Both the position numbers and the translations under genes were made by a program. From assembly GCF_017751145.1 (NCBI RefSeq), contig NZ_CP046640.1, positions 2,770,137-2,834,136 of the forward strand: a stretch of DNA of 64,000 nucleotides, written 5' to 3'. Shown in pieces: positions 12,414 to 28,516 of the stretch; the stretch's first letter is position 1; each line of letters opens with the position of its first letter. This DNA comes from Iocasia fonsfrigidae. Its GTDB lineage: Bacteria; Bacillota; Halanaerobiia; Halanaerobiales; DTU029. Below the pieces are notes generated by a model. It did not search any database and was not told where the DNA came from. It was given only the letters and a program-made list of their open reading frames with translations.

Positions 12414-13352
12414 TTATTTACCCGATTCATAGTGTTCTCCCAGAGCTTGAGGTGGACGCGAACGAACAACTGCTCCAGCCAGTACAATTACAGTTAAAAG
12501 ATAGGGTAACATTTGAATAATCTCATTGGCTATTCCCAGATTTAGCCCCTGTAACCTCATCTGTACTGCATCGGTAAAGGAAAAGAGAAAACTTGCTCCC
12601 AGGCCTCCCAGTGGATTCCACTGACCAAAAGTATTGGCAGCCAGTGCCATGTATCCTCTTCCTGCTGACATATTCATACTAAACCAGTTAAGCTGCCCCA
12701 GAGAAAGATAGGCTCCACCAAGACCTGATAAAGCTCCACTTAAAATTACACTAAAATACTGTATCTTCTTAGTATCTATCCCCAGTGTATCAGCGGCTTC
12801 CGGATGTTCTCCGGTCATTCTTATCCTTAAACCAAGAGGTGTTTTAAATAACAAAATCCAGCCAGCAACAACTAAAATAAACATAAGATAAACAAGGGGA
12901 GATTGGCTACCTAATAATCTATCAATAACAGGAATATCTTTTAGTAATGGTAGTGAAATTTCCCCAAGACCCTTCACAGTTGGTGAACTACCACGACTTC
13001 CCCATAAAACCTGCATCAACCAGGTAGTAGCTCCCAGAGCTAGAATATTTAAGCCAACACCTGTTACCACATGATTTGCTTTATATTTAATAGTAAAAAT
13101 AGCAAAAAGGGCTGCCATTAAACCACCAGCAACAGCGGCTAACAATACCCCTATCCAGGGGTTTCCTGTATAAAATGAACCCAGAACACCAGCAAAAGCA
13201 CCAGAGAGAATCATACCCTCTAGGCCGATATTAACAATACCTGACCTTTCGGAAAAAGTACCGCCCATGGCCGCCAGGGCCAGCGGTGTAGTCATCCTTA
13301 TAGCCGCCGCTGTAGTATTAAGACTAAAAATTGAAGTAATGATCTCATTCAT
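12414..13352 (-). CDS. nupQ: Nucleoside ABC transporter permease (NupQ-like)
   Basis: 312-residue inner-membrane permease of the BMP-associated (BPD_transp_2) family, with SERSGIVNIGLEGMILSGAFAG near the N-terminus, a hallmark of guanosine/purine nucleoside importers of the Bacillus NupNOPQ type. About 8-10 membrane segments. The start overlaps the end of the other permease gene by 8 nt. It is the last gene of the riboswitch-controlled operon, followed by a strong terminator. Confidence 0.9.
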   Translation of the reverse strand: MNEIITSIFSLNTTAAAIRMTTPLALAAMGGTFSERSGIVNIGLEGMILSGAFAGVLGSFYTGNPWIGVLLAAVAGGLMAALFAIFTIKYKANHVVTGVGLNILALGATTWLMQVLWGSRGSSPTVKGLGEISLPLLKDIPVIDRLLGSQSPLVYLMFILVVAGWILLFKTPLGLRIRMTGEHPEAADTLGIDTKKIQYFSVILSGALSGLGGAYLSLGQLNWFSMNMSAGRGYMALAANTFGQWNPLGGLGASFLFSFTDAVQMRLQGLNLGIANEIIQMLPYLLTVIVLAGAVVRSRPPQALGEHYESGK

Positions 13353-14430
13353 TTAAACCAGCCCCTTTCCCTCCAACAGAAAATCTAGTAATAATCTGAA
13401 TAAAAGCTGGAGCAGCAACAAAGAGTATAACCAATCCCTGAACAATAGTCATCAGGTCCTGTGGAATTTTAGCAAAAAGTTGCATGGACATCCCCCCTGC
13501 TTCCAGGGCACCAAATAACAAAGCAGCCGCCAGCACACCCCAGGGTTTATTTCTTCCCAGAACCGCTACAGCAATCCCGGTAAAACCATAGCCAGGAGAA
13601 AAATTGGTAATAAAACGGTGTAAAACACCCAGAACCATAGTACTACCTGCCAGACCAGCAATAGCCCCACTTAAGCCCATTGTTATTACTAAAATCCACT
13701 CTGCCGAGATACCAGCATATTCAGCAGCAGCAGGATTATATCCTACTGCCTGTAAATCAAAGCCTAAAGAAGTATTTTTTAAGAGATAATCAACAATAAA
13801 TATTATAAATACACCCAGTATAATAGCCCAGGTCAACCTGGTATATGGAATAAGCTCCTTTAAACCAGCTGATTCTGGAATCATCCTGGTCTGGTCTACT
13901 GGACCATCTGCTTTAAAATAATTTTTTAATAAAAAGCTAGTTGCTAGAATACCAATATAATTAAACATAATTGTAGTAATCACCTCATGGGCCCCTGTTT
14001 TAGCTTTGAGATAACCAGGGATAATACTCCAGAGTCCTCCAGCCAGAGCTCCACTAACTAGCGAAAGTGGTATCAATATCACTCCGGGCAGAGCAGAAAA
14101 AGCAATAGCAACAATAGCAGTTACAAAAGCCCCCCAGTACAGCTGCCCCTCTCCCCCTATATTAAAAAGACCACTTTGAAAGCCAATAGCAACAGCCAGG
14201 CCGGTAAAGATCAATGGTGTTGTTTTAAGAAGGGTTTGAGCCAGGTTATAGGAATTTCCAAAGGCACCATAAAAAAGATAATAATAAGCCTGCCAGACAT
14301 TATGGCCGGAAATATGTATTAAAATTGCTCCAATTATCAGTGCCATCACAATAGCCAGAAAGGAATAAGTCAGATTGGCTAACCAGGAATTCTCTTTCAT
14401 CTTTGTATATAATTTATTAATTAATGCCAT
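13345..14430 (-). CDS. nupP: Nucleoside ABC transporter permease (NupP-like)
   Basis: 361-residue polytopic permease, partner of the gene downstream. The motif GFQSGLFNIGGEGQLYWGAF (about residues 80-100) is the counterpart of the NIGLEGM motif in the other permease. It overlaps the ATPase gene by 14 nt and the second permease by 8 nt, indicating translational coupling. It forms the membrane channel of a purine nucleoside importer with NupQ. Confidence 0.9.
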   Translation of the reverse strand: MALINKLYTKMKENSWLANLTYSFLAIVMALIIGAILIHISGHNVWQAYYYLFYGAFGNSYNLAQTLLKTTPLIFTGLAVAIGFQSGLFNIGGEGQLYWGAFVTAIVAIAFSALPGVILIPLSLVSGALAGGLWSIIPGYLKAKTGAHEVITTIMFNYIGILATSFLLKNYFKADGPVDQTRMIPESAGLKELIPYTRLTWAIILGVFIIFIVDYLLKNTSLGFDLQAVGYNPAAAEYAGISAEWILVITMGLSGAIAGLAGSTMVLGVLHRFITNFSPGYGFTGIAVAVLGRNKPWGVLAAALLFGALEAGGMSMQLFAKIPQDLMTIVQGLVILFVAAPAFIQIITRFSVGGKGAGLNE

Positions 14431-15946
14431 CCTTATTACCCTCCAATCGGTGGCCTGCCATTAATAGACCTAAATCTTCTTCTGAAAATTCTTCTGTTTT
14501 TCCTTCAGATACTATTTTCCCTTCATAGATGACTATAATCCGATCACTTAAAGAACGAAGTTCATCTAACTCAGCAGAAATAAGCAAAATACCCTTCCCT
14601 TTATCCCTCATCTCCAGAAGAAGGTTATGGATATATTCAATGGCACCTACATCAACCCCCCGGGTGGGTTGTGAGGCTAAAATAAAACCTGGGTTCTGAT
14701 CTAATTCTCTAGCTATTATTAACTTCTGCTGATTACCCCCGGAGAGATTACCTACCAGGTCTTTACTACTTGAACACCTAATATCAAATTGTTCAATAAT
14801 TTTATTACTATATTTTTTAATCATATTTTTATTTAGAAAACCCTTTTTAGCAAAAGGAGTAGACCACTCACTACCGAGAATTAAATTTCTTTCTATGTTA
14901 AAATTTTCAATTAAACCACGTTTTAAACGGTCAGAAGGAATATAGGCCATCCCTGACCTTCTTTTCTCCTTTGTCTTCAGAGTAGTTATATCTTTGCCAC
15001 GAAACAATATCTTACCTTGCTCAATTGTTCTAAGCCCCATTAAAGCTTCTTCTAATTCTAATTGGCCATTTCCCTCAACTCCAGCTACACCCAGAATTTC
15101 CCCCTGCTCTATGGTAAAACTCACATCAGCCAGGGTAAGATTGCTTTTTTTATTATTTAATGACAATCCCTCTACCTTAAAAATAGGTTTACTATTACCC
15201 CGCTTATTTCTAAATACCTTTAAAACTACTTCACGACCAACCATCATCCTGGCTAGTTGATTTGGATTGGTATCAGCAGTATTAACAGTACCTACCTTTT
15301 TGCCATTCCTTAAGATAGTAATTCTATCTGAGATTGCTATTGTTTCTTTTAATTTATGGGTAATAAAGATAATTGTCTTGCCAGCTCTTTTTAATTCTCT
15401 CATCACATTAAACAGTTCTTTGGTCTCCTGAGGGGTTAAAACAGCAGTTGGTTCATCAAGAATTAATATCTCAGCCTGACGATAAAGCGCCTTTAAGATT
15501 TCAACTCTCTGCTGTTCACCTATTGATATATTTTCTATCCTGGCTTCAGGGTCTACCTTTAAATTAAACCTCTGGGATAAATTTTCTACCCTTTGTTTTG
15601 CTTCAGTTCTATCAATAAATAATCCATGTTTCGGTTCATCACCGGCAATAATATTTTCAGTTACAGTTAACCGGTCTACCAGCATAAAATGCTGGTGGAT
15701 CATACCTATCCCCAGCTCAATTGCCTGGCGAGGTTCTTCTATCTCAACCTTTTTACCTTTAATATAAATACTACCACTGTCTTTACTATATAGACCAAAC
15801 AGGATTTTCATTAAAGTTGTCTTTCCAGCCCCATTTTCCCCAAGAAGACAGTGAACTTCACCTTCCTGAACGGCTAAATTAATCCCCTCATTAGCATATT
15901 TTTTACCAAAGGTTTTAGTAATGTTTTTTAGTTCAACAGCATTCAT
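14417..15946 (-). CDS. nupO: Nucleoside ABC transporter ATP-binding protein (NupO-like, duplicated ABC)
   Basis: 509-residue protein with two ABC domains in tandem, as in sugar/nucleoside class II importers. The first has GENGAGKTTL and a LDEPTAVLTPQE Walker B; the second has GVEGNGQLELEE in place of a canonical Walker A and LSGGNQQKLIIAREL as signature. The degenerate second P-loop is normal for this family. It is preceded by a stem-loop separating it from the binding-protein gene. Confidence 0.93.
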   Translation of the reverse strand: MNAVELKNITKTFGKKYANEGINLAVQEGEVHCLLGENGAGKTTLMKILFGLYSKDSGSIYIKGKKVEIEEPRQAIELGIGMIHQHFMLVDRLTVTENIIAGDEPKHGLFIDRTEAKQRVENLSQRFNLKVDPEARIENISIGEQQRVEILKALYRQAEILILDEPTAVLTPQETKELFNVMRELKRAGKTIIFITHKLKETIAISDRITILRNGKKVGTVNTADTNPNQLARMMVGREVVLKVFRNKRGNSKPIFKVEGLSLNNKKSNLTLADVSFTIEQGEILGVAGVEGNGQLELEEALMGLRTIEQGKILFRGKDITTLKTKEKRRSGMAYIPSDRLKRGLIENFNIERNLILGSEWSTPFAKKGFLNKNMIKKYSNKIIEQFDIRCSSSKDLVGNLSGGNQQKLIIARELDQNPGFILASQPTRGVDVGAIEYIHNLLLEMRDKGKGILLISAELDELRSLSDRIIVIYEGKIVSEGKTEEFSEEDLGLLMAGHRLEGNKDGIN

Positions 15947-16038: not shown

Positions 16039-17034
16039 TTACTCAACAGTATCTGGAATCTCAATCTCTGAGTTAATAACCTTTACCTTAACTTCTTCTA
16101 CTTTTGCAATTACATCAGCTGGTAATAAACTGTCTGTATAACCCAGTGCACCATCTTTAACACCAAGGACATGGGTTCCTGCAGAGAAACTATCATTAAT
16201 AACCTCTTCAATAGCAATTAAAACTGTGTTATTAACTAATTTCATACCATTTGTTAAAACATTTTCTGGAGCAAGATAACTCTGATCAGAATCAGCACCG
16301 AGGCCATAACAATTTTCTTCTTCAGCTGCCTTGATTACTCCTAATCCTGACCGACCGGCTGCTCCCCAGATAATATCTACACCCTTTTCAATCATTGACA
16401 GGGTAAGCTCTTTACCTTTGGCAGGATCAGCCCAACTACCAACATAAGAATGCATAACTTCTACTTCAGGATCAACATATTTAGCTCCTGCTATAAACCC
16501 GGCAATGTTAGCATCAATTAAAGGTATCTTCATACCCCCAATAACACCAATCTTTTTAGCTGCATTTATCCTGGGATCATCTGTTTTAGTAGTCATTAAA
16601 GCAGAAGCTACTCCCAATAGAAAACCCCTTTCATTTTCCTGGTATACATATGAAGCCACATTAGGTTTATCTACTACCGAATCAATTAGAGCAAATTTCT
16701 GCTCCGGGAATCTGGAAGCAACATTAGTTAAGGCATCAGCCTGGTCAAAACCAATAGAAATAATCAAATCATATCTCCTGGAAACAGCAAATTGGGTCAG
16801 ATATGTTTCATATTCAGCAATAGCAGTCGGTTCAGCCTGCTCAAATTCAATTCTGTATTTTTCTTTGGCCAGCTTCATACCTTCATATGCTGAATCATTA
16901 AATGCCTTGTCCCCAAGACCACCAGTTGCAAAAACAATCGCCACTCTTCCTTCAGCCTGGACAGCTCCACTACCAATAAAAACCGACACCAACAAACCTA
17001 CTAAGACTATACCTAACAAATATTTTTTAAACAT
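16039..17034 (-). CDS. nupN: BMP family nucleoside-binding protein
   Basis: 331-residue PnrA/BMP-family solute-binding protein: signal peptide 1-28 (cleavage VQA-EG, no lipobox cysteine, which fits a two-membrane cell), then AIVFATGGLGDKAFNDSAYEG, the family's ligand-contact start (GGxxDxxFN), and WGAAGRSGLGVIKAAEE later. It captures purine nucleosides for the NupOPQ importer. The start is supported by GGAGGAA before the ATG. Confidence 0.92.
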   Translation of the reverse strand: MFKKYLLGIVLVGLLVSVFIGSGAVQAEGRVAIVFATGGLGDKAFNDSAYEGMKLAKEKYRIEFEQAEPTAIAEYETYLTQFAVSRRYDLIISIGFDQADALTNVASRFPEQKFALIDSVVDKPNVASYVYQENERGFLLGVASALMTTKTDDPRINAAKKIGVIGGMKIPLIDANIAGFIAGAKYVDPEVEVMHSYVGSWADPAKGKELTLSMIEKGVDIIWGAAGRSGLGVIKAAEEENCYGLGADSDQSYLAPENVLTNGMKLVNNTVLIAIEEVINDSFSAGTHVLGVKDGALGYTDSLLPADVIAKVEEVKVKVINSEIEIPDTVE

Positions 17035-17073: not shown

Positions 17074-18303
17074 CTATTCCATACTTGAATCTAGATAACT
17101 TAAAAAGGATTCATTTATCCAGATATCATTTACTTCAAAATCAACTACTGGATTATAATCTTCCAACTGTCCTTTAAGTTTCTGGGCTACACTGTCAAGT
17201 GCATATGATATAATAGCATATCCATTTATTTTACCCCGTATTTCTGAAACTTTCACAAAACCTGGCAGTGGTGTAGTAGAGGTATATAAAGGTACAAACC
17301 AGGAATTTTTTATAAGTCCTGGTTGATTCTCAACCTCTTTTTGGGCATATTTTTGTATTACAGCAGCAAAAGCTTCTTTTTCAGCTAATGATGGAAATTC
17401 AATTAATAAGTCATATTCTTTAGCATGTACTATACATTTTTCATCACTAATCGCTGTTGTGTCTACATAAGCCGGCGGCTGCCCCCATTCTTTTAACAAA
17501 TGAATATATGAAGAGATTCGTCCTTCAACAGCTATCCTGGCATTAAACTCCTCTCTTCTCAGCAGGGAAATAAGTTGAAATAAATGAGGAAAAGAAGAAT
17601 GACCATAACGTATTGTTTTTGAATAATCCAGCATAGCCCTTTCTGACAGGTCTTTAATAGTATAACCTGTAAATGTCCCATCAGTGATTTCTAACAAACC
17701 TTTATTACCAACACTGTACAAATTTCTGGTATCGGTTTGTATAAGATTTTTAGTATGTATTTGACTTAAGATCTTATTAGTTTTTCCATAAACTTTGGGA
17801 TCCTGTAGCTCAACTGGCAGGTCATATGTAAGACCTAGCCTGTCCATAGCAGTATATATAAGTTTCAATCCATTTATCTTATTAACTATATCATCAGGTT
17901 CTGGTTTATGATCTAATCTAGCGAAAATATCAACTATCTTTGCTGCTTGCCAGTATTTACGCATATCATTTGTTTCTTCTAGATAAGTATAAACAAATTC
18001 TTGCTGATTAATAGCCTCCAGTAAATAAACTGAAGCCTCATTATAAGTTAAAGTTGCATTTTTGTCTAATGATGCCTTTGTTAATCCTTCATTATAATTT
18101 AAAACAATATTAAGCCATTTATTAAATTCAGTTTCTGTCAGCTCTTCTTCATTAATAAATAAATCCTTCTCAATTATTCCTATATCATCGAAATAAACTA
18201 ATAAGGTTTCCTCAATGATAGAATTAGCTGAAGCAAACACATTAAAAGAAAAGATAAACACTAAAATTAAAATAAGTTTAGTAGTTTTAGTTTGAAAGCG
18301 CAT
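17074..18303 (-). CDS. Secreted protein of unknown function, first gene of the guanine/PRPP-controlled operon
   Basis: 409 residues with a signal peptide (residues 1-27, FASA-NS). The N-terminal 130 residues are helical with S-layer-homology-like spacing (ETEFNKWLNIVLNYNEG, NEASVYLLEAINQQ), but the motif is not clear. The C-terminal half is mixed alpha/beta (YDLLIEFPSLAEKEAF, LPGFVKVSEIRGKINGYA). I do not recognise a family. It is 39 nt upstream of the nucleoside-binding protein gene and directly behind the tandem riboswitch, so it is likely an envelope protein linked to purine or nucleic-acid scavenging. AAGGAG supports the ATG. Confidence 0.75.
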   Translation of the reverse strand: MRFQTKTTKLILILVFIFSFNVFASANSIIEETLLVYFDDIGIIEKDLFINEEELTETEFNKWLNIVLNYNEGLTKASLDKNATLTYNEASVYLLEAINQQEFVYTYLEETNDMRKYWQAAKIVDIFARLDHKPEPDDIVNKINGLKLIYTAMDRLGLTYDLPVELQDPKVYGKTNKILSQIHTKNLIQTDTRNLYSVGNKGLLEITDGTFTGYTIKDLSERAMLDYSKTIRYGHSSFPHLFQLISLLRREEFNARIAVEGRISSYIHLLKEWGQPPAYVDTTAISDEKCIVHAKEYDLLIEFPSLAEKEAFAAVIQKYAQKEVENQPGLIKNSWFVPLYTSTTPLPGFVKVSEIRGKINGYAIISYALDSVAQKLKGQLEDYNPVVDFEVNDIWINESFLSYLDSSME

Positions 18304-18360: not shown

Positions 18361-18426
18361 ACCAAAAATAGCCTGCACATGATAAATCCCTTTCTTTCAA
18401 AAATGAGGAATTTACCTGTTCAGGCT
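18361..18426 (-). terminator. Riboswitch expression-platform terminator
   Basis: On the minus strand AGCCTG pairs with CAGGCT and the stem continues through AACAGGTAAATTCC with GGGATTTATCATGT (one mismatch, one bulge, a few G-U pairs), followed by ATTTTTGGTTTT. Its 5' arm contains CAGGTA, the 3' strand of the PRPP aptamer P1 helix, so ligand-bound aptamer and terminator exclude one another. Confidence 0.85.
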
Positions 18427-18516
18427 TTTATCCTTCCGGCGTAGAATTACGTTTTTATGTTAATATAAGACCTCTGCCACTCAGACCAGACCTTTTTATA
18501 AGCGGAATCCCAGGTA
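18413..18516 (-). ncRNA. ykkC-class riboswitch aptamer, probable PRPP subtype
   Basis: The minus-strand RNA carries the ykkC-class blocks in order: GGGATTCCGC, CTGGTCTGAG, then CCGGAAGGATAAAAGCC. P1 is TACCTG (18511-18516) with CAGGTA (18413-18418). Known subtypes sense guanidine, ppGpp, PRPP or ADP; PRPP is favoured because this class is the one known to occur in tandem with guanine aptamers, as here. P1 formation uses bases of the terminator, so ligand binding should switch transcription on. The subtype assignment is inference. Confidence 0.82.
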
Positions 18517-18520
18517 CCTT

Positions 18521-18590
18521 CCCCGTAGTCCAGTTAATTTACGGTTAACCGGGTAGAAACTCGTGAACCATATCTTCACAATTATACGAG
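18521..18590 (-). ncRNA. Guanine (purine class) riboswitch aptamer
   Basis: The minus-strand RNA shows all purine-riboswitch signatures: TATAAT after P1, GATATGG in loop L2, GTTTCTACC in J2/3, CCGTAAA in L3 and GGACTACG closing. P1 CTCGTA/TACGGG, P2 GTGAA/TTCAC and P3 CCGGTTAA/TTAACTGG can be drawn. The specificity base in GACTAC is C (position 74 of the class), which pairs with guanine rather than adenine. It lies 5' of the ykkC aptamer by 4 nt in the same transcript. There is no terminator of its own, so it must act through the shared one. Confidence 0.93.
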
Positions 18591-18612
18591 ATTTATTTAA
18601 TTTTACATTGTA

Positions 18613-18641
18613 ATTATAAATCATTGTAATATCTATGTCAA
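18613..18641 (-). promoter_or_regulatory. Consensus housekeeping promoter of the riboswitch operon
   Basis: On the minus strand TTGACA (18636-18641), 17-bp spacer, TATAAT (18613-18618): both hexamers are perfect. Transcription would begin about 15 nt before the guanine aptamer, which leaves control to the RNA. Confidence 0.9.
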
Positions 18642-28216: not shown

Positions 28217-28263
28217 AAAAAAATAAGGACCAATACCTAACGGAAAGCAGATATCAATCCTTA
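28217..28263 (-). terminator. Expression-platform terminator of the Moco/Tuco riboswitch
   Basis: On the minus strand TAAGGATTGATATC pairs over 14 positions (five G-U) with GGTATTGGTCCTTA, followed by seven T residues. A competing antiterminator pairs GGAAAG-A-AGATAT at the aptamer's 3' edge with ATATCT-G-CTTTCC inside this terminator. Confidence 0.9.
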
Positions 28264-28271
28264 ATTTATAT

Positions 28272-28361
28272 CTTCTTTCCAAACACGGGAGGCTGAAAGG
28301 TTTCCCTGTTAACCCAAACGACTAAACCACCTTAGAATTTTATCCTTAGGTAAAATAGTTC
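28272..28361 (-). ncRNA. Moco RNA family riboswitch, probable tungsten-cofactor (Tuco) variant
   Basis: The minus-strand leader of tupA has the conserved Moco-RNA 3' block CAGCCTCCCGTGTTTGGAAAG, very like the Escherichia coli moaA element (GCCTCCCGTATCTGGAAAGG), plus AAGGTGGTTTAG and CAGGG upstream in the right order. The region equivalent to the P3 arm is much shortened or absent, which is the feature of the variant proposed to bind tungsten cofactor. Boundaries are approximate. Genes controlled (tungstate uptake, pterin synthesis) fit. GGAAAG is shared with the antiterminator, so ligand binding should lead to termination. Confidence 0.85.
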
Positions 28362-28516
28362 GAAGATAAATATATTATTTTATTACAAATTATAGTAAAT
28401 TATAATTTGAAAATTAGCAATTATCTATCAAAATTATAACAAACACGATAATTTTAGTCAATAATTATCAATTTATGGCTTTATTATGCAAAGTTTTAGA
28501 CAATAAGACAATAAAA

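Follow-up and report, generated by a model that had tools for sequence, protein, structure and literature searches.

Probable collapse of a tandem guanine-PRPP riboswitch to a one-input guanine OFF switch ahead of an importer operon in Iocasia fonsfrigidae

Two-input RNA logic gates are few, and their gain and loss have been little studied. A guanine-PRPP tandem with IMPLY logic was described in the leaders of codA and purine genes (Sherlock et al. 2018, PMC5912903), and a 2022 survey counted 192 guanine-PRPP tandems and listed no guanine-ppGpp pair (PMC9481103). Within the PRPP family, more than 97% of members carry a G at position 96, and the G96A change in the T. mathranii aptamer moves the Kd for PRPP from 2.0 to 1600 uM (~800-fold) and that for ppGpp from 91 to 1.8 uM. 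In this mutant, C75 pairs with the guanine of ppGpp, and a U at the equivalent of C75 marks adenine-containing ligands (PMC6031431).

The window, the whole 64,000-nucleotide stretch of I. fonsfrigidae DNA that was analysed, holds a leader in which, as in the tandem of PMC5912903, a guanine aptamer is followed at short distance by a ykkC domain, and the two share a terminator that overlaps the second aptamer through its 5' arm. Unlike that tandem, the window copy has changes at PRPP-contacting and other invariant residues, a BMP importer as its target and an antiterminator that seems to be ligand-independent. It also resembles a single guanine riboswitch (RF00167) with a P1-overlapping antiterminator, in that guanine would act as an OFF signal through competition between P1 and the antiterminator, but a ~90-nt ykkC remnant lies inside the antiterminator loop. 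Most likely, the leader is a degenerate, single-input form of a gate type that is already known. Its parts and their pairings, the lost conserved residues, an intact ortholog and recurrent loss at uptake genes, all read computationally from sequence, suggest that a tandem guanine-PRPP riboswitch has probably collapsed to an OFF switch with guanine as its one input and an antiterminator that needs no ligand. In the course of binding, folding and expression that we infer, the second (PRPP) aptamer would have lost its ligand pocket and both of its ends would now make up a long, remodelled antiterminator helix able to form without ligand, leaving the importer operon on by default. Once guanine is bound, the P1 of its aptamer would take the G run that opens the antiterminator, allowing the terminator to form and switching the importer off.

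The leader covers ~300 nt of the minus strand between the promoter and the start of a 409-aa gene. The consensus promoter named in the first-pass annotation (18613..18641, minus strand; TTGACA at 18641-18636, a 17-nt spacer and TATAAT at 18618-18613) matches 12 of 12 consensus bases. It is followed by a guanine-type purine aptamer, a ykkC-related domain and a single terminator with a U tract, which gives the neighbouring aptamers and common terminator of IMPLY-gate architecture. This tandem layout, also proposed at first pass, was borne out by matches to RF00167 and to a PRPP model (R1, below) and by folding. The guanine-type aptamer itself (18506..18609, minus strand), correctly named in that annotation, scores 77.8 bits on RF00167 (E 3.6e-12, gathering score 37), and its core extends from the P1 5' strand CUCGUA (18590-18585) to the P1 3' strand UACGGG (18527-18522). 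In the RF00167 alignment, J3/1 is GACUACG, fitting GACUAYG with the C that pairs with guanine, and J2/3 reads GUUUCUACC, as expected for a U51-type J2/3 (UUUCUACC). At columns conserved in at least 97% of the other tandems no mismatch was seen, and at those conserved in at least 95% (64 tandems aligned) there was one. The guanine aptamer of a permease leader in the same genome (L003) has GAACUACG, with an extra A in J3/1, and still scores 74.6 bits; its ligand may differ.

For the second domain, Rfam 15 gave no separate PRPP, ppGpp or ADP match on the window. Because Rfam alone was not decisive, its sole ykkC-type match being a sub-threshold one to Guanidine-I, two further models were built. 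A pattern scan of public genomes yielded 57 loci, most of them tandem or solitary PRPP aptamers with plain subtype 2b features. R1, a PRPP model, was built from 21 of these loci with the window copy left out, and R2 from six ppGpp-type aptamers whose putative assignment to ppGpp was made by their genes (glutamate-synthase-like, branched-chain amino acid and peptide transport, and a NatA-like ABC protein). The window domain (18403..18523, minus strand), a decayed PRPP (subtype 2b) aptamer, scores 50.0 bits on R1, compared with 86-110 bits for most canonical tandems in the same order. Its sister copies in the same genome reach 106.8 bits (purD leader) and 91.7 bits (permease leader), scores that are not independent because both copies (L001 and L003) are in the R1 training set. 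On R2 the window scores 39.9 bits, as against 99-117 for the six members of that model and 60-78 for canonical PRPP aptamers. The covariance-model comparison suggested by the first-pass annotation thus places PRPP first, ahead of ppGpp-type and Guanidine-I (28.9 bits on RF00442), but four guanidine-I RNAs score 43-47 bits on R1, about level with the window. Of the ykkC-class aptamer that had been claimed here, the ykkC-derived domain stands, but it departs from a canonical PRPP aptamer: it appears to be of subtype 2b descent, yet far from canonical 2b members. A Guanidine-I identity was rejected on its score (gathering score 63) and on the U, not A, at the equivalent of position 46. An ADP (subtype 2c) identity is disfavoured at the marker position, since 18441 (position 75) is C and not U.

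The residues of the domain were numbered after the T. mathranii aptamer, with positions placed through the contacts named in PMC6031431 and not from the T. mathranii sequence itself. In this numbering, U7 is deleted (between 18518 and 18517, minus strand), and the window carries A14G (18511), A76G (18440), G96A (18420), G99A (18417), G104A (18412) and G105A (18411); C61 and one P1 pair are also altered. When 64 tandems were aligned, the ykkC half of the window showed nine mismatches at columns conserved in at least 95%, and any other tandem had three at most. This appears more telling than a Fisher test comparing how far the ykkC and guanine halves had changed, which was borderline (p 0.04-0.16). 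G96 is retained by every other aligned tandem, and two residues that are invariant or ligand-contacting in the PRPP riboswitch, G105 and A76, are both lost. The P1 helix of the PRPP aptamer, which canonical members form with GCGGUACAG in mid-aptamer, is no longer intact: one base is deleted and there are two mismatches. CAGGUA, previously taken for the 3' strand of ykkC P1, is not that strand and sits in the new antiterminator helix. Traits of subtype 2b are nevertheless kept, namely pyrimidine 49 (in GAGUGG; A in guanidine-I) and the P0 helix GGGGAA/UUCCUC, and the P1a/P1b bases, the GAUAAAAG loop (present as GAUAAAAGCC), C75, C77 and G48 are still legible as well. The window and the T. mathranii G96A mutant (PMC6031431) share A at 96 and the kept C75, but in the window G105, A76, A14 and the P1 pair are changed too. 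Given G96A together with the changed A14, C61, A76, G105 and P1 pair, binding of PRPP or ppGpp is unlikely, and the proposal that PRPP switches this copy on did not hold; some residual or altered ligand binding by the ykkC half may persist.

The run of genes behind the leader is as first annotated: a predicted secreted protein of 409 aa (17074..18303, minus strand, as are all five; without a hit in Pfam or NCBIfam), a BMP/PnrA-type substrate-binding protein of an ABC importer (16039..17034; PF02608, 245.6 bits), the transporter ATPase (14417..15946; PF00005) and two permeases (13345..14430 and 12414..13352; both PF02653). Membership in the BMP/PnrA family predicts nucleosides as the cargo. For the secreted protein, whose orthologs might have dated the leader, none were found in the bacterial family searched. 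Among 398 genomes of the phylum, 7 others have partial matches, proteins with 26-35% identity to its C-terminal half. Elsewhere in the window, a Molybdenum/tungsten cofactor riboswitch (RF01055, 77 bits; 28256-28377, minus strand) lies among molybdenum-cofactor genes.

In a sister genus of the same family (genome G005), a canonical tandem directly precedes genes for a BMP protein, an ATPase and two permeases, without the secreted-protein gene between leader and BMP. The BMP protein there is 70% identical to that of the window, and the leader scores 104.3 bits on R1, has G96 and carries a purine aptamer of 69.3 bits. Another canonical tandem (L021) stands ahead of a phosphorylase-like gene and a BMP protein. 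The parts of the G005 leader (L191, L073) and of L021 are ordered as in the window, but both hold canonical PRPP aptamers (104.3 and 96.5 bits), unlike the window. For the BMP orthologs of four further genomes (G006, G004, G021, G017), no purine aptamer was present in the stretches read. By these comparisons, guanine-PRPP gates do stand ahead of BMP importers, and this genome is not the only one to show it. The tandem at the orthologous place in G005 upholds descent from a tandem guanine-PRPP riboswitch, the kind of element named at first pass, and the window copy is most simply a decayed form of a G005-type gate.

Folding confirmed the single long terminator (18364..18426, minus strand), a hairpin at 18426-18370 of -23.8 kcal/mol followed by U5 at 18368-18364; a simple terminator scan returned nothing at the site because the hairpin loop is over its limits. 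The antiterminator pairs a 5' strand, GGGGAAGGUACCUG (18511..18524, minus strand), which shares its GG(GG) with the 3' strand of guanine P1, with a 3' strand, CAGGUAAAUUCCUC (18405..18418, minus strand), within the 5' arm of the terminator. The pairing reported earlier between the flank of guanine P1 and this arm (UACCUG/CAGGUA and GGAA/UUCC) is present. The whole duplex has 12 standard pairs flanking two G-A mismatches and, at -19.2 kcal/mol, ranks strongest among 60 tandems. When the strands of the G005 leader (-11.8 kcal/mol) were given an equal number of random changes, -19.2 was reached in 1% of trials, and from three other starting sequences in 2.6-4.7%; at 1-5% by starting sequence, this control offers moderate support.

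In equilibrium secondary-structure estimates, which take in neither tertiary contacts nor kinetics, the ligand-free terminator minus antiterminator energy is -3.6 kcal/mol for the window versus -22.0 in 59 canonical tandems (sd 4.6, smallest 9.2), so that the equilibrium without ligand still leans towards the terminator, by 3.6 kcal/mol. When transcribed as far as 18405, the nascent RNA is predicted to fold unaided into the antiterminator. With the guanine P1 forced to form, the antiterminator state is penalised by 7.7 kcal/mol and that of the terminator by 0.5. In the folding model, an antiterminator that forms by default and is disfavoured by guanine P1 is the behaviour expected of an OFF switch for guanine whose default state is on, and the guanine-OFF logic put forward at first pass is well supported by the pairing. 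The terminator is weak for its class (mean -34.7 kcal/mol), and its pairing is retained although both arms have changed relative to G005 (C94-G to U94-A and G104-C to A104-U).

To place the window among related leaders, 59 purine aptamers in 38 genomes of the order were surveyed and the second aptamer scored, with four contig-end cases left out; the next gene was identified by eye from its N-terminus, and a PRPP aptamer was counted as kept at 60 bits or more. All 31 purine-synthesis leaders had kept it, versus 6 of the 24 leaders of uptake genes (PbuG-type NCS2 permeases, a single NCS2-like gene, and BMP), the window being among the 18 losses (Fisher p = 9e-10, uncorrected for shared ancestry, with one genus, g8, contributing 10 of the 18). 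Losses occur in genera g1, g4, g6, g7, g8, g11, g15 and g16, which, read without a rooted tree, is most simply explained by several independent losses. The guanine aptamer is retained in the decayed leaders, and many have a strong antiterminator (L182, -23.4; L185, -27.0; L183, -17.8 kcal/mol); in L199, L204 and L206 of g8 it was no better than in shuffled sequence. Compared with 59 canonical leaders, 14 decayed ones (window excluded) have weaker terminators and stronger antiterminators, with a terminator minus antiterminator energy of -8.9 versus -21.2 kcal/mol (p 3e-6; p 6e-5 with one leader per genus, six genera), in a comparison that omits L205 and L208 (g8, without a clear terminator) and in which the duplex search window differed somewhat between the sets. 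A literature search of incomplete coverage found no paper on PRPP-aptamer loss at uptake genes, and the pattern appears not to have been described previously.

Other readings of the window leader were weighed against this collapse. A working guanine-PRPP IMPLY gate, in which guanine shuts the operon off and PRPP overrides it, would fit the subtype 2b descent, the unchanged order of parts and helix overlap, the canonical G005 ortholog and a PRPP model score above those of the ppGpp-type and guanidine models. We consider it unlikely, as G96A, G105A, A76G and A14G have arisen and the P1 pair is lost; all other aligned tandems keep the G whose change to A raised the PRPP Kd ~800-fold in T. mathranii. 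That the operon is no longer under either aptamer is slightly less probable still: the weak terminator and an inserted downstream gene that the ortholog is without would agree with such a dead leader, but the guanine aptamer retains its score and an intact core, the promoter is a full consensus match, the terminator pairing has survived changes on both arms and the antiterminator is stronger than that of the ortholog.

The G96A change had first suggested a guanine-ppGpp gate (or one for another nucleotide or relative), in which the second aptamer switched ligand, and which, if true, would couple the uptake of purines to the stringent response. G96A alone made the T. mathranii aptamer a ppGpp binder (PMC6031431), C75 is kept, and the A at 18420 agrees with ppGpp subtype 2a, in which position 96 is not G. 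The idea was demoted because ppGpp-type aptamers retain A14, A76 and G105 (and likewise C61 and the P1 pair), all changed in the window, and because GCCUGAAC is also found in L181, a leader from which the greater part of the ykkC domain has been deleted; the R2 score, below both its own members and canonical PRPP aptamers, stands against it too. We regard it as the least probable of these readings, and favour the collapse to a guanine OFF switch with a single input.

The order offers a natural series: gates are intact at purine-synthesis genes and half decayed in the window leader, and at uptake genes the second aptamer has been erased completely. The guanine aptamer persists along the whole series, as in most cases does the antiterminator. 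Such a series suggests that there is value in retaining the PRPP override for synthesis but none for import, and that an input can be shed from a riboswitch whose antiterminator takes over its work. It also cautions against concluding from gene order and spacing alone that a second ligand is still sensed.

Several leaders of the survey had features of their own. In the g8 permease leaders L183, L199 and L201-L208, the guanine aptamer is followed by an unconserved spacer of 60-150 nt, probably the former place of the PRPP aptamer, and in most of them an antiterminator still closes the leader by pairing with the 3' strand of guanine P1. The permease leader L181 (G005:C81) retains a P3-like remnant with GCCUGAAC, its bases identical to those of the window. 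In L140, L142, L147 and L152, PRPP aptamers of 79-85 bits are without the P1b/P2 arm (no UUCCG...GGUCC) and represent a compact form.
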